64,000 nucleotides of DNA from Hyphomicrobium zavarzinii ATCC 27496 (lineage in GTDB: Bacteria > Pseudomonadota > Alphaproteobacteria > Rhizobiales > Hyphomicrobiaceae). The notes beneath the pieces were generated by a model. It saw only the letters and a list, made by a program, of their open reading frames with translations, searched no databases and was not told the origin of the DNA. Positions 51,280-60,720 of this stretch are shown here, in pieces; positions within the stretch are counted from its first letter, which is position 1; every line of letters begins with the position of its first letter. The stretch covers positions 418,001 to 482,000 of the forward strand of contig NZ_KB911255.1 of assembly GCF_000383415.1 (NCBI RefSeq), written 5' to 3'. The translations under genes and the position numbers were made by a program.

Positions 51280-51816
51280 ATGAATGTCGCGGCGATTCTT
51301 TACGAAGGCGATCAAGGCGAGCTGACGGATGCCTTGCTCACCGATGTGGCCTACCAATTCCGTCATGCGGGCGTGAAGCTCGCAGGCGCCGTGCAGTCCA
51401 AGTCTGCGCCGCGCCCCAACCGTTGCGAGATGACGCTCGAGGACCTCGCCACCGGGCAGTGCATCAAGACGTCTGACGATCGGGCTCCGCCGGAGCCGGG
51501 ATGCCGGCTGGACGCGAACGCGCTCGAGGATTCCGTCGGTCTTGCGGCGTCGTCGCTCGATCCCGCAACAGAGCTCGTTATCATCAACCGGTTCGGGAAG
51601 CGGGAGTCGGATGGGAACGGCTTCCGGCCGTTGATCGAAAGTGCGGTTTTCCTTCAGGTGCCGGTGCTGGTCGGCTTGAAGCGCGTCCATTTCGAGGCGT
51701 GGCGCGATTTCGTTGGAGACGACCTGGTTTTCCTCCCGCAGCGCCGCGAGGACATACTGGGGTGGTGTGCGGCGGCGATGTCGGAATCGGCCGCAGAGCG
51801 CGCGGCTGCATCCTGA
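51280..51816 (+). CDS. DUF2478 family protein
   Basis: 178 residues starting MNVAAILYEGDQGELTDALL, with ELVIINRFGKRESDGNGFRP as the family core and LVGLKRVHFEAWRDF near the end. DUF2478 proteins are predicted nucleotide-binding-like and often lie near molybdenum-related or nitrogen oxide genes; no activity is established. ATG 51280 is preferred over TTG 51268. It converges with the nnrS genes. Confidence 0.75.
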   Translation: MNVAAILYEGDQGELTDALLTDVAYQFRHAGVKLAGAVQSKSAPRPNRCEMTLEDLATGQCIKTSDDRAPPEPGCRLDANALEDSVGLAASSLDPATELVIINRFGKRESDGNGFRPLIESAVFLQVPVLVGLKRVHFEAWRDFVGDDLVFLPQRREDILGWCAAAMSESAAERAAAS

Positions 51817-51885
51817 GCCGGGCTGCAATCCTTATTCGGTCATCGATGTAAACTGTGCTGTGCGAACGGAAGGTGGTTCGCGCGA

Positions 51886-53091
51886 TTACAGCCTTTGCTT
51901 CATGAGCATGGGGCCGTAGAGCGCGGCAAAGCCGCCGAAGGCCAGGATCCAGGCGGCGCCCGAGACCGGAAGCAGGATGGACGTCAATTCCGGGTGGAGC
52001 GCCGCGCCGATGCGGGCGCAGGTTGCAATAAGCGCCGTGGCATAGAGCACGACCGTGCTTGCGGGTGCGGTGAGCTTTCGGCCGCTGTGGCCTCTCGAAA
52101 CGCGCGTCATCACCGCGATGATCATGGTGCCGATGGCGCCCGTGGTCCACGCGTGGAGGCCGGCGGACGCAAACTCGAAGTTGTCGTTCAGAACGCCAAG
52201 GCCGGACAGCAAGAAGCCGAGGCCCACGAAAACGTACGCCACGTGAAGAATGGCGAGCAGCGGCTCGGCGAAGGTACGGAGCGGTGTCCAGCGGCTTTGG
52301 CGGTAGAAATTCGCGGCTGCGGCCGCAATCATGGCCGAGCCCACGATCGGACGAGCCTGAGCGGTCAGGCTTTCCAAAACTGGAAGGCAGGCCCAGCCGA
52401 GGAGCGCGGCTCCGCTGAGCACCATGGCAGCCATGTCGTAGCGGCCAAAGAGTTGCGGCAGGGCCCCAGGCCGGTTCTGCTTCAGCCAGTTGGTGGTGAA
52501 GAACGGGATGATGCGCCCGGCGATGGTCATCACAAGCAGAAGCGCCACGGCGACGGCCAGCGTCTGCGCATGCTTCAGTCGGCCGAACTCGAAGACCTCG
52601 TAGTGAAACAGGGCGTCGGCTCCGGCGAGGCCGATCAGGGCACCGACGATCTTGAGGTTGCGCCAGTTCTTTGCTGCAACGATCTCGCGCCCTATGATAG
52701 CCGCCAGCGCGAGGGGGAACGATACGCAGAGTGCTGCCGTGAGCAACGGATCAAGGTGTGCGGACAGCGCGAGGGCGATGCGGCCCGTGAGCCAGAGCAG
52801 CACGAGGGCGCCGAGTGACAGCCCCCTCACGGGTGCTCGTCCGGTCCAGTTCGGTACCGCCGTCAGCAGGAAGCCCGCGACGATGGCGGGTACGAAGCCG
52901 AACAGCAACTCGTGGGCGTGCCAGGCGGTGGGCGGGAAAGCGCTCGGCACGGAGATGAGGCCCAGGAACCACGGCACCCAGAGCGCGATCAAGACCGCGG
53001 CATAGATGGAGCCCAAGAGAAAGAACGGCCGGAATCCGAGACTAAGGATTGCGGGCGGGTTTTTCTGCCGGATGAGATGGGTGGTGGTCAC
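51886..53091 (-). CDS. nnrS: NnrS family membrane protein (copy 1)
   Basis: 401 residues with about 12 membrane helices. NnrS proteins bind haem and copper and help bacteria withstand nitric oxide. The signature TAWHAHELLFGFVPAIVAGF then LLTAVPNWTGR is at residues ~55-90; FFTTNWLKQNRP and GFLLSGLGV follow. Start GTG 53091 with GAGG just before it, 9 bp after the second nnrS gene's stop. Last gene of the TonB-ABC-NnrS operon. Confidence 0.92.
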   Translation of the reverse strand: MTTTHLIRQKNPPAILSLGFRPFFLLGSIYAAVLIALWVPWFLGLISVPSAFPPTAWHAHELLFGFVPAIVAGFLLTAVPNWTGRAPVRGLSLGALVLLWLTGRIALALSAHLDPLLTAALCVSFPLALAAIIGREIVAAKNWRNLKIVGALIGLAGADALFHYEVFEFGRLKHAQTLAVAVALLLVMTIAGRIIPFFTTNWLKQNRPGALPQLFGRYDMAAMVLSGAALLGWACLPVLESLTAQARPIVGSAMIAAAAANFYRQSRWTPLRTFAEPLLAILHVAYVFVGLGFLLSGLGVLNDNFEFASAGLHAWTTGAIGTMIIAVMTRVSRGHSGRKLTAPASTVVLYATALIATCARIGAALHPELTSILLPVSGAAWILAFGGFAALYGPMLMKQRL

Positions 53092-53100
53092 GGGAGCGCC

Positions 53101-54327
53101 TCAACAGCCGTCGTGTTGGAAGGTGCTACGATCGCGTATGAACGGCCAGTAGACCTTAACCCAAAGCAAGAAGGCTGCGGCCCAGAGTAGCGACACAAGC
53201 GCATAGGGCGGGGACGAGAGCAAGTCCGTTGGCCAGATCTCGGGAAGAACCCGCACGACCATGGCTGCCACCAGGAAAAGCATTGCGGCCCTGGTCTGGC
53301 GGACAAGGCCGAGCGCCTGTCCCGTGTGCCTCAGCCCGGCAATCGCGAATACGGTGAGGACGCCGAGGCCCAGCCCGCCCATCAGGGCGACGTGCAGCCC
53401 GGCACGCTCCGGGATCGGGGCTCCCAGGTGGGTTGCGCCAATCAGGATCAGGCCGATGCCGGCAAATGCGCTCGAGCCTGCGAGCGCCAGGATCTCGGCC
53501 CGCACGATTTCCTTGCCGATGAAGGCTTCGGCCACGCGGTCCATGAAGGCGGCGCCAGCGGCAATGAACAGATAACCCGTGGTCTGTTGGGATAGACCGA
53601 GGACTTCCGCGCCTATCAGTACGGCGACGAGCCCGGGTGCGAGGTTCATGCGGCCGGGGTGCGGGCGGAACGGCGAGGTCTCCTGGGTGGGATCGAGCAC
53701 AAGATTGGTCACCGGCACGGTGATGCGCGCCAGCGCGATCCCGAGAATGCCGAGGAAAATGAACCCGGCGAGGTGGCTTGCGCGCTGGGCAAGCTCCATG
53801 CGGTTCGCGATGTCGAGGAACGCGTAGCGGGTGACGGCCTCGGCGAGAAACAGGGACGCGATCCAGAACACGAAGCCGATCAAGCGCGTGGACTGTTTCC
53901 TGAGCGAGATCTGCACGAGATAGGCGACGAGGAGCGCGAGCCAGGCGAGATCGCAAACAGCGGCGATGGGACCGAGGGATTCCAGGCCGACAAGGCCGGC
54001 GATGCGGGGAAAGCCCCAGAGACCTGCAAACACGAACAGTGCGCGCCCGCGAAGCCGCGGCGTGTCGGTCCACTCCGGAACGGCGGTGGTGATGAAGCCG
54101 ATGAGCGCGGCACCGAACGATCCAATGATCAGCTCGTGGACGTGCCAAAGGCCAGGGGGGATCTCGGTCGCGAGCGGCAGATTGAAACCGTAGATCACCG
54201 CCCATAGAAAAGGCCATAGCGCGGCGTGAAGGGCGGCTAGCGGAAAGAAGAGGCGAAACCCCTCGTCGCTGAGAACATCGAGAGTCCCGGACAGAGACTC
54301 GAATCGCGCCGACTGAGACGTGCTCAT
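53101..54327 (-). CDS. NnrS family membrane protein (copy 2)
   Basis: 408 residues, ~12 membrane helices, with the variant signature GLWHVHELIIGSFGAALIGF then ITTAVPEWTD. Clearly homologous to the neighbouring NnrS but divergent, so it is probably an old duplicate or a specialised partner. Its ATG overlaps the ATPase stop by 4 bp (ATGA), linking it translationally to the ABC transporter. Confidence 0.88.
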   Translation of the reverse strand: MSTSQSARFESLSGTLDVLSDEGFRLFFPLAALHAALWPFLWAVIYGFNLPLATEIPPGLWHVHELIIGSFGAALIGFITTAVPEWTDTPRLRGRALFVFAGLWGFPRIAGLVGLESLGPIAAVCDLAWLALLVAYLVQISLRKQSTRLIGFVFWIASLFLAEAVTRYAFLDIANRMELAQRASHLAGFIFLGILGIALARITVPVTNLVLDPTQETSPFRPHPGRMNLAPGLVAVLIGAEVLGLSQQTTGYLFIAAGAAFMDRVAEAFIGKEIVRAEILALAGSSAFAGIGLILIGATHLGAPIPERAGLHVALMGGLGLGVLTVFAIAGLRHTGQALGLVRQTRAAMLFLVAAMVVRVLPEIWPTDLLSSPPYALVSLLWAAAFLLWVKVYWPFIRDRSTFQHDGC

Positions 54328-55073
54328 GATGCCCGCCGCTCGTTGGTATCGTGGATATGGGCGAAGAGAGGATCTTCGTTCAAGAAGGCCTGCACGGTCG
54401 CGAACACGAAGGCGTCGTCACGCTCTCCCTGAGGCCGGGACAGGAAGCGTTCTCCGGCGATGCCGCGAACGCGCTCGTCCAGCACAACGATCCGGTCGGA
54501 TACGCGCACGGCTTCCGCGAGATCGTGGGTCACGAAGAGGCCCGCGAAACGCGCCTGGCGCGCCGCGGCGATCACGAGATCCTGCATCTGGCGTTTCAGC
54601 GCGACATCGAGTGCGGTGAACGGTTCATCAAAGAACACGAAGTCCGGCTCCACGACAAGCGCGCGAGCGATGGCCGCCCGCTGGCGCATGCCGCCCGACA
54701 ACTCGACCGGGTACTTCTCGAGATCCCGGCGATCGAGGTGCACGAGGTCGGCGGCCGCCCTGGCTCGCGCACGGCGCGCGTTGCAGCGCACGCCTGCGAG
54801 GCGAAGCGGATAAGCGATGTTGTCCTCAGCCGTGGCCCACGGCAGGAGGCGGTGCTCCTGAAAGATCATGCCGTGACGGCGGTAGCCATTGGCGACGCGG
54901 CCTCGCTGGGGCTCGATGAGCCCGGCGGCGATGTGGACAAGCGTGCTCTTGCCGCAACCGGAAGGACCGACGAGCGAGACGATCTCTCCGTCGCGTACGT
55001 CGAGCTTGACCCGGTCCAGAACGGTCCGGCCGAAATAGGCGTGGGAGACGCCTTCGAGCGCAAGGGCTGTCAT
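54324..55073 (-). CDS. ABC transporter ATPase, nitrate/sulfonate/taurine type
   Basis: 249 residues: Walker A GPSGCGKSTLVH, Q-loop region GMIFQEHRLLPW, signature LSGGMRQRAAIARAL, Walker B VFFDEPFTALD and switch His in FVTHDLAEAV. These match the NitT/TauT/SsuB family of importers. ATG 55073 overlaps the permease stop, and its stop overlaps the nnrS start. Substrate unknown. Confidence 0.93.
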   Translation of the reverse strand: MTALALEGVSHAYFGRTVLDRVKLDVRDGEIVSLVGPSGCGKSTLVHIAAGLIEPQRGRVANGYRRHGMIFQEHRLLPWATAEDNIAYPLRLAGVRCNARRARARAAADLVHLDRRDLEKYPVELSGGMRQRAAIARALVVEPDFVFFDEPFTALDVALKRQMQDLVIAAARQARFAGLFVTHDLAEAVRVSDRIVVLDERVRGIAGERFLSRPQGERDDAFVFATVQAFLNEDPLFAHIHDTNERRAS

Positions 55074-55882
55074 CTCTTGACCCCCCATGGGCGAGCGGCT
55101 TCACGCCAGCGCTCGAGCTCGGCGCGGATGGGCTGCACCACGCCGTACTCCACCATGAAAATCGCGGTGACGATCACCACCACCCAGGCGATCGACTGAG
55201 CGACATCGAGATTGGAGCGCGACATGGCGAGCGCGACGCCGATGCCGTCGATGTTGGCAAGAAGCTCGGCCATGACCGCCACTTTGAAGGCCGATCCGAG
55301 GGCGACGGCCAATGCCGGAAAATACTGGCCTGCCACATGGCGCATCACGACCGTCCATAGCCTTTGCAGCGGGCCGGCGCCGAAGGCCTTGGCCATCTCC
55401 TCCAACGCGCGGTCGCGCGTCGCCACGGCTTCGGCGACGTTGGCGAAAACGAGAGGGAAGCCTGCGACGACGATCGTCGTCAGAACCGTTCCGCTGGTCG
55501 ATCCGAACCAGATCATGGCGAGCACGATCCAGGCGATCGGCGGCACGCCCATGATGATGGTGAGGAGGGGACGCGCCAGGCGCATGGCCGCGGCGGAGTA
55601 CCCGACCGCGAGTCCGAGCACGCCGCCGAGAAAGGCGGTCAGCGCGAAGCCCTGGATGGCGCGGGTGGAGGTGGCTCGAGCCAGCCGCCATGTTTCCTCC
55701 GCGCGCAATAGCTCTGCCGTGGCGTGGAAGGTGGCGATGGGAGAAGGGAGAATGAAATCGCCATAGGCTTCGTGGCCTATCTGCCAGACGGCGGAGAACA
55801 GTGCGAGACCGGCGACGCCCACCCATCCCGACCACAAGAAGCGGCCGAGGCGTCCCATCCTGTCGAGCAAGACCTGTCCCAT
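55070..55882 (-). CDS. ABC transporter permease, NitT/TauT family
   Basis: About 270 residues with six membrane helices; the EAA-type loop is EMAKAFGAGPLQRLWTVVMR, and PPIAWIVLAMIWFG is characteristic of the nitrate/sulfonate family. ATG 55882 (GAGG five bases upstream) starts 8 bases after the binding protein stop; an alternative at 55909 overlaps it. Works with the ATPase and the Tat-exported binding protein. Confidence 0.92.
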   Translation of the reverse strand: MGQVLLDRMGRLGRFLWSGWVGVAGLALFSAVWQIGHEAYGDFILPSPIATFHATAELLRAEETWRLARATSTRAIQGFALTAFLGGVLGLAVGYSAAAMRLARPLLTIIMGVPPIAWIVLAMIWFGSTSGTVLTTIVVAGFPLVFANVAEAVATRDRALEEMAKAFGAGPLQRLWTVVMRHVAGQYFPALAVALGSAFKVAVMAELLANIDGIGVALAMSRSNLDVAQSIAWVVVIVTAIFMVEYGVVQPIRAELERWREAARPWGVKR

Positions 55883-55889
55883 CGGGGCC

Positions 55890-56927
55890 TCACAAGTAGA
55901 AATCGGCATCCGGCAGCTTGCCGCCGATGTAGCCGGGGTTGACCTCTGCCATGGCCTCCAGAACGCTTTCGACGGCCGTGCGGGCCTCGCGTGCCGGTGT
56001 GGCCACGAGATTGCAGTAGGGGATGGACTTCTCGATTACGGGCCACGGCATCTGCAGCGGTCCCGCTGCGTTGTTGGCGGCGCGTGCCGGATGGGCTGCC
56101 ACGTCGGCTGCGGCTTTGGCGAGGGCGTCCTGAAGCGCCTGGAGAGCAGGACCGTTTGCTTCGCGGAAGCTGTCTGTCACCACGAGACCGGCCTGGGGGA
56201 CGATGGTCGGCTTTCCGGTCAGGCGCCCCCATTCGGCCTGGAGGTCGATGACCCGGTGGATAACCTTGCCGGCGAGGTTTCCTTTGACGATGGCAGCCGA
56301 TGCGGCGGGCTCCGGAATGATTGCGGCGTCCACGCGGCCGAGAACCAGGAGCTGCATGGCTTCGAGCGGTGTGGCGCTCGGCACCTGCTCCAGATCCTTC
56401 TTGCCGTCCACGCCTGCAAGACGGAACAGGCGCTCAAGGATCAGGCTCGGAAGCTCGTTGGGGAACAGCGTCGCGAGCTTTCGACCACGGAGCTTTTCGA
56501 GGCTCGTCAGGTCCGGATCCGCCGACATGACGTAGAGGATGCCGTTCGTCATGACGTTGACGAGCCGCACGCCGAGGCCCTTGTTGTAAAGATTGGCCGC
56601 GACCGGGACGGGGGTGATGCCCACGTCGAAGCTTTTCGATGTCAATCCCGCGCGCACCTCGTCGACCTGGCGCCAGACGCGCAGGGTGGGTTTGCGTGCG
56701 ACGCCGTCGAGCTTTCCCGTGGCGATGGCGTGCAGAACGGTGATCGAAGGTCCCGCAGGCGGCCCCCAGATCTCGAGCTTGTCGAGAGGCGCGGCGAATG
56801 CGGGCGATGGCACAAGCGCAGAAACGGCGAAAGCGCCGCCAAGCGACGCTCCGCCTTTCATCAAGGTTCTGCGCGTGATGCCTGTGGGCTCGGCGTAACC
56901 GCGCCCCAAGTGCTGTTTTCTAAACAT
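55890..56927 (-). CDS. ABC transporter substrate-binding protein (Tat-exported)
   Basis: 345 residues: Tat signal (ITRRTLMKGGASLGGAFAVS, twin arginine, cleavage near AFAAP), then an NMT1/THI5-like periplasmic binding fold (GPSITVLHAIATGKL, KLRGRKLATLFPNELPSLIL, LVLGRVDAAIIPEPAASA). Tat export suggests folding with a cofactor or metal before transport. The ATG overlaps the TonB receptor stop (TGATG). The ligand cannot be read from sequence. Confidence 0.9.
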   Translation of the reverse strand: MFRKQHLGRGYAEPTGITRRTLMKGGASLGGAFAVSALVPSPAFAAPLDKLEIWGPPAGPSITVLHAIATGKLDGVARKPTLRVWRQVDEVRAGLTSKSFDVGITPVPVAANLYNKGLGVRLVNVMTNGILYVMSADPDLTSLEKLRGRKLATLFPNELPSLILERLFRLAGVDGKKDLEQVPSATPLEAMQLLVLGRVDAAIIPEPAASAAIVKGNLAGKVIHRVIDLQAEWGRLTGKPTIVPQAGLVVTDSFREANGPALQALQDALAKAAADVAAHPARAANNAAGPLQMPWPVIEKSIPYCNLVATPAREARTAVESVLEAMAEVNPGYIGGKLPDADFYL

Positions 56928-59305
56928 CAGAACTTCGCTTTTACTCCCGCTACGAATGCACGCCCGTCACCCGGCAGGAAGACAGCCTGGTTGGGGCTCG
57001 AGACGGAGTCGACGACCAGCGTCGCGGATGCGTACCTTTCGTCGAAGATGTTCGAGACCTCGCCGAAGATCGAGAGGTTGTCGGTTACGGCGTAGCTCGA
57101 CCGGAGATCGACCAGCGTGAAAGCCTCGTTGTAGAGCTTGTTGGCGTTGTCGACCGGGGTTTCGTCGGGAACCCAGTTGACCTCGGCTTCGACCCATAGA
57201 CCCGGGATGACCGTGTAGCGCAGAGCTGCGTTCACGATGTGACTCGGGGCGCCGGCCAGGCGATTGTCGCCGTAGTTGCGGTCGCCGTCGAAGCGGAAGT
57301 CCTGGTAGGTGTAGGCCACGCGGCCGCTGAGGTTTGCGGTGAGTGTGACGGCGGCTCCCAGCTCGATGCCGAAGTGGGTTGTCTTGTCTGCGTTGACGGC
57401 GCCGAGGGAAACGCCCGATGCGTCACGCAGGTTGAGCAGCTCGTCCTCGACCCAGGAGTAATAGGCAATGGCGGACCATGCGATGGAGCTGGTATTGCCC
57501 TTCCAGCCGCCTTCGAGCGTAGTTGCGGTCTGTGCATCGAGATCGGGTGTTGAGAACACGGCGGCCAGAGGGTTCGGCGCCGATCCGCCAAATCCGGCGC
57601 TGGCATTCGGATTGCCGTTGACGGTGGCGATCAGGTCGTCGTGGGTCGGCGGCTCGAAGCTGCGGCTCACGGCGGTGAAGACAGATTGATCGCGAGCGAT
57701 GTCGTAGCTGAGCGCGAGGCTCGGGCTCCACTCGGAGTAGGAGCGATCATAGCTCGTGTCCCTGAAGGGGCGCGTGCCCCGCATCGTCGCTGCGGGATTT
57801 GGGATTGCGAGGAAGGGGCGCGTCGTCGCGGTATAGATGTCGTCGTTGTCGCGCGTGGCGTAGGAGTACGCGATGCCAGGCGAGACCGTCAGCCGGTCCG
57901 TGATGGGGACGTTGAAGCCGGCGTGGATCGAAAGCGTGCTCGAGTCGAGCTCGTTCTCGCCGACAAGGAGATCCTTGTCGCCGCGATTGTTGATGAAGTA
58001 GCTGCGGTCGGCGGAGCCGACGACATACTGGCCGGTCAGCTCGAATAGGGGCAGAGCGCGGCTCGGCTCTGGCGCGTAGGCGTAGCGCATGACAGTTGTG
58101 AAGTCGCCGCCGTCCGTCTCGCGCACGCCGCCGGAAATCGGGAACGTGAAGCTGTCGTCCGTGTAAGTGTAACCGAACGCGACGTCGAACAGGTTAGCGC
58201 CGTAACGCGCGGTCGTGCGCGAGCCGACGCGGAACTGTTCGGCTTCACGGCTCGGATCGTCACGGCCGACGTTCGGACCGAGGCAGTTGGGCGGGCCCGA
58301 GCAGATCTGCTTCGGGTTCTGCTCCATCAGCTTGCTGGACAGCGGACCCACGACGTCGAAGGCGAGGTCGGTGTATCCGAAGAACAGGCGTGTGTTGATG
58401 TTCTCGTTGATGCGCGCGCCTGCATTGATGTTCAGGTTTGTGCGTTCGGATTCGTTGTGAATACGGTAGCCATCGCGCTCGGCGTAGCTGAGGCTCGCGT
58501 GGGCGTCGAGATCACCCTGGCGCGCGCCGGCCTGTGCGCTGGTGGCGAAATGACCGAAGCTTCCGCCTTCGACGCTGACCTCGACGCCGGGGTCCGTGAT
58601 GCCTGTGGGCGAAACGAAATTGATGGCGCCGCCCAGTACCGTGGCGCCGAGCCGGTTGGCGGTGTAGCCGCGATAAACCTCGACGAACTCGGCGCTCTTC
58701 GGATCTGCGAAGCCGACGATATAGGATCCGTCCGCGCGGTTGATGGGCAAGCCGTCCTGAAGCACGAGGGTGCCGCGCTCCGAGGGGTTCTGCTGAAGGC
58801 CGGAGCCGCGGATCTGGAGGCGCGGCTGGTCGTTGCTGCCGAAGAAGTTCTGCACGACGACGCCAGGGACGAACGCCAGCATCTCGGAGAGCGACGCGCT
58901 GGCCTTGGGCGTGATCTCCTCGCTGGTGACGACGGCGGTGCCGCCGGGGATGGCGTTCAGGGTTCTCGCGGCTTCCTGGCTCGGCGAGCCTTCGCTGGCC
59001 GGAGCGGCCTCGGCACCTACGCCCTCGGATGCTTGCGTTGCTCCAGACGCCGCCGAGGTTGCGGCTTTCTTGGATTTCTTTGCGGGCTGGGACGTGGTGC
59101 CCTGAACGACGACCGGGGGCAGGTCGACGCTCGCACCCGGTGCGGCCGACTGGCTCGATGCGTCGGTCGGCCACGCGAGAAGCAGGGCGCAAAGGGCCAA
59201 TCCAGCTTCGAGGCCGCCTGCTTGGCGGCCAGCGATTTCCCCTGCACGGAGCGTCTCATCCGAGGGACGGCGATCTTTCTGACTAAAGTTTCCCGTAAAA
59301 TACAT
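56927..59305 (-). CDS. TonB-dependent outer membrane receptor
   Basis: About 792 residues: signal-like segment (AGLALCALLLAWPTDASSQS), Ala/Ser-rich linker, plug domain (ALNAIPGGTAVVTSEEITPK, RLQIRGSGLQQNPSERGTLV, LGGAINFVSP) and a beta-barrel ending in an aromatic residue (VAGVKAKF). Such receptors import siderophores, haem, cobalamin, nickel or copper chelates or other scarce ligands using TonB energy. It heads the operon that continues with the binding protein. Start taken at ATG 59305; earlier codons are possible. Confidence 0.93.
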   Translation of the reverse strand: MYFTGNFSQKDRRPSDETLRAGEIAGRQAGGLEAGLALCALLLAWPTDASSQSAAPGASVDLPPVVVQGTTSQPAKKSKKAATSAASGATQASEGVGAEAAPASEGSPSQEAARTLNAIPGGTAVVTSEEITPKASASLSEMLAFVPGVVVQNFFGSNDQPRLQIRGSGLQQNPSERGTLVLQDGLPINRADGSYIVGFADPKSAEFVEVYRGYTANRLGATVLGGAINFVSPTGITDPGVEVSVEGGSFGHFATSAQAGARQGDLDAHASLSYAERDGYRIHNESERTNLNINAGARINENINTRLFFGYTDLAFDVVGPLSSKLMEQNPKQICSGPPNCLGPNVGRDDPSREAEQFRVGSRTTARYGANLFDVAFGYTYTDDSFTFPISGGVRETDGGDFTTVMRYAYAPEPSRALPLFELTGQYVVGSADRSYFINNRGDKDLLVGENELDSSTLSIHAGFNVPITDRLTVSPGIAYSYATRDNDDIYTATTRPFLAIPNPAATMRGTRPFRDTSYDRSYSEWSPSLALSYDIARDQSVFTAVSRSFEPPTHDDLIATVNGNPNASAGFGGSAPNPLAAVFSTPDLDAQTATTLEGGWKGNTSSIAWSAIAYYSWVEDELLNLRDASGVSLGAVNADKTTHFGIELGAAVTLTANLSGRVAYTYQDFRFDGDRNYGDNRLAGAPSHIVNAALRYTVIPGLWVEAEVNWVPDETPVDNANKLYNEAFTLVDLRSSYAVTDNLSIFGEVSNIFDERYASATLVVDSVSSPNQAVFLPGDGRAFVAGVKAKF

Positions 59306-59367
59306 CTTTTTACAGACCCCGATGCGTTGTTTCTTGACCAACGTATTCCAGTTTGTTCGAAAGCTAC

Positions 59368-59381
59368 TTGCTCTTGGTCAA
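59368..59381. promoter_or_regulatory. FNR/DNR-like site upstream of the TonB-ABC-NnrS operon
   Basis: TTGCT-CTTG-GTCAA: the TTG...CAA symmetry and 4-base spacer fit Crp/Fnr-family sites (consensus TTGAT-N4-ATCAA); it deviates at the inner positions, as some DNR/NnrR sites do. It is 63 bp upstream of the TonB gene start and next to the Crp/Fnr gene. Confidence 0.5.
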
Positions 59382-59436
59382 GTGGTGTCTTGGCATGGAG
59401 GGTGTGTGTCCTGTGCGACACGCGGACGTGCGATAT

Positions 59437-60126
59437 TCAGAACTCATCCTGGTTGACGAAGCGGGCGAGTCTGCTGACGTCGCTCACGACAATTCTTCGT
59501 CGTTTCGCTTCTACGCCGATCGCGGCAAGCTCACTTAGCGCGCGCGACAGTGTTGCCGGCGTCATGGATAGGCGTGCTGCGATGTAGCGCTGCTCGACGG
59601 GGAGCTCGAAGCGGCAAATGCCGTCATTGTCCCCGCAGATCTTATGCAGGAAGGCCGCGACCCGGCGCTGGGGTGACCACTCCTGATCCTGCTCAATGCG
59701 CGCAACGAGACGACGAAGCTTTCCGAAGACCGCGGCGATGATCGACAGCGACAGCTCGGGTGATTGCAGGATGAGGGCGCGGAAGCGCGCCGTGTCTATT
59801 CTCGCGAGCCGGAGATCGGTCGCGGCTTCGGCACTGACGGGATAGTGGGCTTCGCGGGCGAGCACGGCCTCGGCGAACGATTCACCCGGGCCGATGAGAT
59901 GGATCGCCGTCCGCTCGCCGTCCGAGCCTTCGCGGAACAGGGCTGCCCATCCGTCCAGGACGAAATAGAAGGCCGTCGCCACGTCGCCCTGGTGAAACAG
60001 GATTTCGCCCGCGGAGAGTGTTACGATGGGTGTCTCGGCAGCGAATTTCTTGAAGTCGCTCTCGGACAGCCCTGACAGAAACAGGGCGCCCCGCAACATT
60101 TCAAGATCATGACTGTCGCTCGCCAT
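59437..60126 (-). CDS. Crp/Fnr family transcriptional regulator (Dnr/NnrR-like)
   Basis: 229 residues: cyclic-nucleotide-type sensory beta-roll (~25-120: AGEILFHQGDVATAFYFVLD, LIGPGESFAEAVL), dimer helix and C-terminal winged helix (RYIAARLSMTPATLSRALSE). The N-terminus lacks the cysteines that would hold an FNR iron-sulfur cluster, which fits Dnr/NnrR-type haem sensors of nitric oxide. ATG 60126 has AAAGGAG upstream. Its promoter has a perfect FNR-type box 120 bp upstream. Confidence 0.9.
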   Translation of the reverse strand: MASDSHDLEMLRGALFLSGLSESDFKKFAAETPIVTLSAGEILFHQGDVATAFYFVLDGWAALFREGSDGERTAIHLIGPGESFAEAVLAREAHYPVSAEAATDLRLARIDTARFRALILQSPELSLSIIAAVFGKLRRLVARIEQDQEWSPQRRVAAFLHKICGDNDGICRFELPVEQRYIAARLSMTPATLSRALSELAAIGVEAKRRRIVVSDVSRLARFVNQDEF

Positions 60127-60204: not shown

Positions 60205-60253
60205 CACAATTTTATTCTATATTATGGCGGTCGTGATTATTGATTCAGATCAA
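60205..60253 (-). promoter_or_regulatory. Class II FNR-type promoter for the Crp/Fnr regulator
   Basis: The perfect box TTGAT-TCAG-ATCAA (60240-60253) is centred 41.5 bases before a start site predicted at ~60205-60207, with TAGAAT (minus strand, 60214-60219) as the -10 element. This geometry is standard for FNR/DNR activation. The leader to the ATG would be about 80 bases. The box also precedes the plus-strand DUF454 gene by 12 bases, too close for normal activation there. Confidence 0.7.
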
Positions 60254-60264
60254 GCCGATGCCCG

Positions 60265-60720
60265 ATGCGTACGGCACGCAAGACCGATATGATCCGGATC
60301 TGCAACTCAATTCACTATGCCACTGACCGGGAGATTGGGCATCGCGTGCAAAGGTTGGCCTATATCGCTGTCGGCGGCATTGCAACGCTGCTCGCCATTG
60401 CCGGTGCGATCCTGCCTGGCCTGCCGACAACTCCCTTCCTGCTGGTCGCGCTTTGGGCGTTCGCACGCTCGAGCGAGAGATTGCTCGGATGGCTCGACCG
60501 GGTGCCGTTGCTCAGGGAGGCCATGGCGGAAGCGCGGCGCTTCGAGGAGCGGCGGGCGATCCGGCGCGAGATCAAATTCACTGCCGTTGCGGTCGCGTGG
60601 GGATCCGTTTTGTTCACGGCTGTGGCGTCGGACTTTTCGAAGCCGCTGCTCATCGGCATTGTTGCTGCCGCGGCAACAGCGGGCACCATCGCGATGATCT
60701 GGATTCCGACCGACCGATAG
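60265..60720 (+). CDS. DUF454 (YbaN-like) small membrane protein
   Basis: Up to 151 residues with two to three membrane helices (AYIAVGGIATLLAIAGAILP then GLPTTPFLLVALWAFARSSE, the DUF454 signature; KPLLIGIVAAAATAGTIAMI at the end). YbaN proteins are inner-membrane and often FNR-controlled. The start is uncertain: ATG 60265 is only 12 bases after the FNR box, so a later start (ATG 60289) is possible. Diverges from the Crp/Fnr gene. Confidence 0.75.
   Translation: MRTARKTDMIRICNSIHYATDREIGHRVQRLAYIAVGGIATLLAIAGAILPGLPTTPFLLVALWAFARSSERLLGWLDRVPLLREAMAEARRFEERRAIRREIKFTAVAVAWGSVLFTAVASDFSKPLLIGIVAAAATAGTIAMIWIPTDR

Follow-up and report, generated by a model that had tools for sequence, protein, structure and literature searches.

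The molecular role of NnrS proteins (PF05940) is still unclear, even though they belong to the core of nitric oxide (NO) and denitrification regulons. In the parts of the literature available to us, NnrS appears as a regulon member in NO and denitrification control, solitary nnrS genes belonging to NnrR, NsrR, NorR or DNR regulons, and its role is termed hypothetical or undemonstrated. A Paracoccus nnrS gene, Pden_4044, is placed there under NtrYX control (we do not equate it with the NnrS described below), and work cited in the passages available of PMC10256816 has NnrS relieving iron-NO complex stress in Vibrio cholerae. Among described importers, SsuABC, TauABC and NrtABC combine a type-I ATP-binding cassette (ABC) permease and ATPase with an NMT1-like substrate-binding protein (SBP), and PqqU is a TonB receptor and PqqT an SBP that shares this NMT1-like fold. 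We analysed a locus in Hyphomicrobium zavarzinii ATCC 27496 (genome of 4.65 Mb in 15 contigs) where proteins of these kinds are encoded together, within a stretch of 64,000 nucleotides (contig NZ_KB911255.1, positions 418,001 to 482,000), hereafter the window. The pairing of a TonB-ABC importer with one of the two NnrS proteins of this unit, NnrSa, is real, conserved and tied to denitrification. The parts are of known kinds; what is new is their combination and the NnrSa group. A literature search covering open-licence papers found no description of an NnrS-TonB-ABC unit, and none is given in the passages available of PMC9409073, PMC9519893, PMC12124388, PMC12423496, PMC9549626, PMC1274295, PMC6710368, PMC4417242, PMC10256816 and PMC4138514. 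The genes of the unit, in order of transcription, are as follows.

56927..59341, minus strand: TonB-dependent receptor (TonBR), translation start uncertain
55890..56927, minus strand: SBP with a twin-arginine translocation (Tat) signal and an NMT1-like fold, nearest solved structure 3hn0
55070..55882, minus strand: ABC permease, frame open from 55909
54324..55073, minus strand: ABC ATPase, frame open from 55088
53101..54327, minus strand: NnrSa, of the transporter-linked NnrS group, with an ATGA overlap with the ATPase gene
51886..53091, minus strand: NnrSb, the second NnrS, falling in a separate NnrS group

Reading of the open reading frames (ORFs) together with Pfam and NCBIfam scores bore out the place, strand and family of every gene named in an earlier, sequence-only reading of this DNA. 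NnrSa and NnrSb scored 354.5 and 246.1 bits against PF05940 (cut-off 28). The receptor exceeded the cut-offs for the plug (PF07715, 56.3 bits against 23.9) and the beta-barrel (PF00593, 140.4 against 27), and the SBP those for NMT1/THI5-like PF09084 (26.8 against 20.5), Phosphonate-bd (31.9 against 27) and the Tat signal TIGR01409 (20.4 against 16.7). Of 34 SBP homologues, 29 have an RR pair among their first 40 residues, and the five without it come from four Campylobacterota and Ilyobacter. The ATPase matched ABC_tran with 103.5 bits and the permease BPD_transp_1 with 71.9. The genes had also been said to follow each other at distances of nine bases or less, which is the case: the TonBR and SBP genes overlap by one base (TGATG), permease and ATPase (ATG at 55073) and likewise ATPase and NnrSa join at ATGA, and NnrSa and NnrSb are 9 bases apart, with a GTG start. 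One detail changes, as the SBP stop ends at 55890 and the permease ATG begins at 55882, a gap of 7 bases rather than 8 if this start is used; with another in-frame ATG, at 55909, as its start, the permease gene would overlap that of the SBP.

Of 103 Hyphomicrobiaceae genomes, 11 have the SBP, that of H. zavarzinii among them. At the ten other loci, NnrSa adjoins the ABC genes in seven; in L020 the contig breaks off within the ATPase gene, and two (L025 and L026) are without NnrSa. The full order TonBR-SBP-permease-ATPase-NnrSa-NnrSb was found in L017, L018, L019, L021 and L022, the NnrSb match carrying one TAG in L018 and lying in pieces in L021. L024 is without NnrSb, and in L023 this receptor is missing and a different TonB protein is encoded upstream. 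The latter scored 215.5 bits against the copper-receptor model TIGR01778 (cut-off 472). L025 and L026 have the ABC genes and a Crp/Fnr-type regulator (ORFs read by eye); over 20 kb no homologue of NnrS or of the TonB receptor was seen there. A profile scan of genome contigs returned 23 loci, six of them contigs of the family set (L029-L032 were judged by their counterparts L017-L020), from genera that include Azospirillum, Devosia, Rhabdaerophilum, Rhodobacter, Magnetospirillum and Novispirillum. NnrSa is present in 21 of these 23, the other two (L030 and L042) ending at a contig edge, and a homologue of the window receptor was found in 15 of the 19 loci that were mapped. In a plasmid collection 58 records matched, of which 20 were opened, and NnrS lies within the unit in 17: Paracoccus (2), Martelella, Cereibacter, Chelatococcus, Agrobacterium (2), Shinella, Rhizobium, Allorhizobium, Azospirillum, Bartonella, Arcobacter (2), Nitratiruptor, Sulfurimonas and Neisseria. 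The three without NnrS are from Pseudomonas nitroreducens, Diaphorobacter and Ilyobacter. The order in Azospirillum is SBP-permease-(Crp)-TonBR-ATPase-NnrSa-(NnrSb); because it differs and the genes still adjoin, the unit holds together through rearrangement. The coupling first noticed in the window is thus real and conserved, order and coupling recurring in other genera more than by chance, and the order is not unique to the Hyphomicrobium genome.

In 36 of 42 unit-bearing loci the ATG of the next long frame lies between -4 and +5 bases from the ATPase stop, in a set that was chosen for having the unit and includes the window and near-copies (L049 was not measurable); the exceptions are L038, L043, L046, L051, L057 and L070. 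Eighty NnrS proteins were placed in a maximum-likelihood tree, midpoint-rooted and with a solitary sample taken mostly from high-scoring hits. A 99/99 branch separates the 40 ATPase-adjacent rows from the other 40. The ATPase-adjacent rows span Hyphomicrobium to Arcobacter and Neisseria, and the Neisseria row has a long branch and joins those of the Campylobacterota. On the other side are 20 solitary rows and 20 other unit rows, namely one from L081, located about 5 kb off, and 19 NnrSb rows, which form a group of their own (99/99). NnrSa thus shares a Pfam family with the solitary NnrS proteins but differs from them in being tied to an ABC importer, and the 20 solitary rows sampled lie across the 99/99 branch from it. 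An importer-tied NnrS group that extends from Alphaproteobacteria to Campylobacterota and Neisseria provides a concrete partner for NnrS and a ligand question that can be assayed. One NnrSa-like match (genome G028) was first taken as unlinked, and was then seen to adjoin permease and ATPase genes at a contig end.

The H. zavarzinii genome encodes NirK and NosZ, both over their cut-offs and located elsewhere than the unit, and is therefore equipped for denitrification. Across the 103 family genomes, eight have both the unit and NirK, one the unit only (G003), four NirK only and 90 neither. The association of unit and NirK, uncorrected for shared ancestry, has a Fisher P of 1.8e-8, or 1.4e-7 without H. 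zavarzinii itself and 9.8e-4 outside its genus. G064 was counted as a unit genome with its NnrSa off the contig, and G028 would move from NirK only to both, a shift that these figures do not include. Neighbouring genes point the same way. In L019, nirK and a formylglycine-enzyme-type gene, presumably nirV, diverge from the regulator gene, and NnrSb is followed by a molybdopterin-domain gene, a major facilitator superfamily transporter, which we take to be narK-type, and a narG-like frame (read from the sequence). The Agrobacterium units sit between U32/UbiD genes and nap genes, those of Rhizobium and Allorhizobium adjoin nor genes, hemN, hemerythrin and NnrU, a Devosia locus (L038) has ccm-type genes and DUF2249 nearby, and U32, UbiD and molybdopterin oxidoreductase genes are found near the unit in Rhabdaerophilum. 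At the Azospirillum argentinense and Shinella loci no denitrification-type genes were seen nearby, except cytochrome oxidase genes in Shinella. The link to nitric oxide and denitrification that had been proposed from the window is therefore upheld by the neighbours (nirK, nar-, nap- and nor-type genes, NnrU and hemerythrin), by the co-occurrence with NirK and by a Crp/Fnr-type, operator-like palindrome described below.

Because the gene set recurs in nitrate-breathing and other bacteria, the unit probably imports something needed when cells handle nitric oxide. In the mechanism that we propose, Crp/Fnr-type control would switch the unit on in low oxygen or nitric oxide, the TonB receptor would carry a scarce ligand over the outer membrane, and the Tat-signal SBP would pass it to the type-I ABC importer. 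NnrSa would be the partner of the importer in the inner membrane and might, for example, accept, reduce or shield an imported metal, the ligand being needed to build and protect denitrification enzymes. We consider a metal or haem-type chelate (iron, copper, haem), the kind of ligand that the sequence-only reading had suggested, the most likely ligand of this uptake system, in what we judge to be a roughly even call. If the unit does supply metal or haem in denitrification, it bears on the building of nitrite and nitrous oxide reductases, and hence on N2O release.

The neighbours of the unit in other bacteria are consistent with such a ligand. The Cereibacter locus contains HutW (over its cut-off), HutX and a haem ABC system, the Arcobacter loci contain HutX and ChaN, and iron-type genes lie near the Nitratiruptor and Bartonella units, with FUR, FTR1 and ferritin among the neighbours. 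Pseudoazurin is encoded in the Martelella locus, the copper-receptor-like TonB protein (below cut-off) in L023, and CobN in the locus of Diaphorobacter, where no NnrS was seen. The relief of iron-NO complex stress ascribed to NnrS in Vibrio cholerae also speaks for a metal. This metal context is suggestive only, because the loci were chosen for reading and carry no background count. A narrower form of the idea is that the unit serves copper supply for NirK and NosZ specifically, with NnrSa a copper-handling protein. The co-occurrence with the copper enzyme NirK, the presence of NirK and NosZ in H. zavarzinii itself, the pseudoazurin of Martelella and the copper-receptor-like TonB protein of L023 (below cut-off) would all fit, but it is iron or haem genes that accompany the units of Arcobacter, Nitratiruptor, Cereibacter and Bartonella, and no copper-ligand motif was seen in the SBP, so that we regard an exclusive role in copper supply as decidedly unlikely.

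The structural relatives of the SBP raise two further alternatives. Its model (predicted local distance difference test score, pLDDT, 85.6) has as fold neighbours 3hn0, then PqqT, then sulfonate and pyrimidine proteins. The closest solved protein, 3hn0 (Parabacteroides BDI_1369; E 7.9e-30 with profile A2, template modelling (TM) scores 0.71/0.86), has the AANLYN-G and GG-LPD stretches in common with the SBP, and its structure titles name no ligand. Relatives with this NMT1/SsuA fold bind sulfonates, taurine, nitrate and thiamine precursors, and models for sulfonate, taurine and nitrate transport are among those that the ATPase and permease matched, in every case below cut-off. It is thus conceivable that the ABC-TonB part imports a small anion or an organic sulfur or nitrogen compound and that NnrS is merely co-transcribed, for joint protection from nitric oxide and uptake. 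Co-induction, however, explains poorly why one NnrS group remains ATPase-adjacent across classes, phyla and rearrangements, and a TonB receptor would be unusual for small anions. The SBP also reached only 39.6 bits against the SsuA_fam model TIGR01728 (cut-off 163.5). Although it resembles SsuABC, TauABC and NrtABC in its type-I permease, its ATPase and its NMT1-like SBP, the unit scores far below the cut-offs of these families and has a TonB receptor and NnrS in addition. We think this explanation unlikely.

The nearest solved relatives with a known ligand suggest pyrroloquinoline quinone (PQQ) or a similar planar polycarboxylate cofactor instead. PqqU is the closest solved relative of the receptor (E 6.2e-30, against 1.5e-11 for the next protein), and PqqT follows 3hn0 for the SBP (TM 0.68/0.77), but as a sequence match PqqT is weak (E 0.0014) and the receptor scored 131.6 bits against the PqqU model, whose cut-off is 1200. 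The published PqqU signature comprises Y99, R304 and R365, and the passages available of PMC12124388 include one alphaproteobacterium in their count. Opposite the aromatic Y99, the window receptor and 24 of 24 homologues have a proline, a position mapped by a numbering offset of 7 that also fits Q84 and Q121, in an alignment that covers Y99 and not the R304/R365 stretch. PQQ is therefore disfavoured as the ligand, the signature aromatic being replaced by proline, and the neighbours of the unit, in contrast to PqqU and PqqT, are denitrification, iron or haem genes; we hold import of such a cofactor to be very improbable.

Several observations weigh against import of a metal or haem chelate for the handling of nitric oxide. 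The ligands of the named SBP fold relatives are small organic or inorganic compounds, and no metal-ligand pattern was seen among the invariant residues of the SBP. The metal-related neighbours are a mixture of iron, haem and copper genes, from loci chosen for opening and with no background count. The test of co-occurrence with NirK is uncorrected for shared ancestry; G003 has the unit and no NirK over cut-off, and four NirK genomes gave no SBP hit, although in one of these, G028, the genes for permease, ATPase and NnrSa are found where a contig ends. No adjoining NnrS was seen beside the SBP in L025, L026, L066, L067 and L071. In a sample of 387 genomes of the class, seven had SBP hits and only H. 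zavarzinii and G240 had the unit. The five other hits, all in family f28, were set aside as distant homologues (24-34% identity, tblastn) and appear to represent a different lineage of the fold.

The predicted structure of NnrSa (pLDDT 87.9) has twelve helices of at least 15 residues, and its best match in the PDB was the nitric oxide reductase NorB (3o0r_B, E 1.3e-3, TM 0.59/0.55), followed by cbb3 (CcoN), ba3 and aa3 oxidases; the Foldseek search gave no match at E 0.001 or below. All 33 NnrSa rows have just three histidines in common: H62, in the second long helix of the model, H312, in the tenth, and H334. Haem-copper oxidases carry low-spin haem ligands on helices II and X, and about six metal-ligand histidines in all; with its three invariant histidines in 33 rows, NnrSa does not have the full set. 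Comparison by hhalign showed no sequence relation to NorB or CcoN (probability 0.8% and 0.2%, respectively), in a weak test with shallow profiles in which the NorB and CcoN sides were two near-identical sequences and one sequence. We therefore treat the resemblance of the NnrSa model to nitric oxide reductase as a lead that comes from fold and has no sequence support. A more specific proposal that would follow this lead is that NnrSa is a haem-copper redox subunit of the ABC importer, with an oxidase-like fold, that uses respiratory-chain electrons to reduce or strip an imported ferric, cupric or haem chelate and is in turn sensitive to nitric oxide. We rate it as unlikely; if true, it would define a new class of redox-assisted importer and give a function to at least one NnrS group.

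The regulator gene, the putative control sites and the remaining neighbours in the window are as follows.

59437..60126, minus strand: regulator gene of the Crp/Fnr family, with its ATG at 60126 in a frame that stays open upstream as far as 60207
59366..59383, minus strand: palindrome ACTTGACCAAGAGCAAGT, upstream of the TonB receptor gene and kept in several relatives
60240..60253, no strand assigned: FNR-type box TTGAT-N4-ATCAA, between the regulator gene and the divergent DUF454 gene
60265-60720: DUF454 gene, diverging from the regulator gene and having the intergenic FNR-type box in common with it
51280..51816, plus strand: DUF2478 gene, converging on the unit and weakly linked to it

The ACTTGACCAAGAGCAAGT pattern, with at most one mismatch, was found only at this site, once per strand (0.25 matches expected), and its TTG-N8-CAA spacing is that of the boxes printed for the Bradyrhizobium NnrR regulon. 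A Crp/Fnr-type palindrome is present in five of the eight receptor upstream regions compared (the window and seven relatives). When aligned, the palindrome type and a downstream GTCAA-AAA block are common to the window, L017, L019, L020 and, more weakly, L022; the palindrome was not seen upstream of the receptor in L018, L021 and L024. The TTGAT-N4-ATCAA box is the only exact match among three with at most one mismatch (0.88 expected). Matches to the regulator, at 47.6-82.4% identity, were found in 7 of 46 related loci scanned. Its cNMP_binding and HTH_Crp_2 domains place it in the Crp/Fnr family, as the sequence-only reading had it, but the further description 'Dnr/NnrR-like' is unproven, because no His or Cys is invariant among eight aligned proteins and no curated NnrR or DNR model matched, the nearest NCBIfam model being FtrB (105.9 bits against a cut-off of 211). 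Regulators of other kinds accompany the unit elsewhere: an Rrf2 gene lies near the units of Paracoccus, Martelella and Chelatococcus, with similar RirA and NsrR scores, all below the equivalog cut-offs, and a FUR-family gene near that of Nitratiruptor. Between 51700 and 60400 of the window, a sigma-70 scan found no sites (0.9 expected) and a terminator scan found ten (5.8 expected), which were not used.

The DUF2478 gene (PF10649, 148.4 bits against a cut-off of 22.3) does converge on the far end of the unit, as had been reported, but is only weakly linked to it elsewhere, because among the compared loci, at the thresholds used, it adjoins the unit in the window and L081 only; in L081 it lies upstream of the SBP gene. 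It was therefore rejected as a core part.

Individual loci showed further variation. At L023:10812-12731 and L046:6904-8865 a different TonB receptor occupies the usual place of TonBR. In Nitratiruptor (L063:7057-8010) and Sulfurimonas (L064:6726-7673), where no annotated TonB receptor was seen, a gene annotated as 'transporter' stands by the SBP gene, and that of L063 matches PF13557. The order in Neisseria (L070:4018-11210) starts with the receptor, which lies in two frames, goes on to SBP, permease and ATPase, and has a CadD-family gene ahead of NnrS. The gonococcal receptor TdfF, considered as a lead, is given no ligand in the literature passages available, and we do not claim the L070 receptor as TdfF. 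A search of viral contigs found no relative.

At L025:8445-11832 and L026:7843-11142 the Crp/Fnr-type gene is divergent and filamentous-haemagglutinin-like genes lie alongside (read by eye). The SBP-like genes of f28 (L076-L080) adjoin antiporter- or Cox-like genes, also by eye, and L078 has an adjacent ATPase match; ORFs were listed for four of these loci, of which L076, L078 and L080 seem to start without a signal sequence and L077 has an unclear start. At E 1e-30, four of the five f28 genomes had no NnrS, and the fifth (G126) has one on another contig. The Arcobacter loci encode a small protein (L062:7978-8385 and L068:10093-10494) with weak matches to UPF0093 (28.6 and 20 bits; cut-off 34.2), a family that we take to be HemJ. 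Finally, a further NnrS gene of the H. zavarzinii genome (G000:C8:35840-36987; L004, L005 and L084) is split into two matches, one of them containing an in-frame TAG, and appears decayed.

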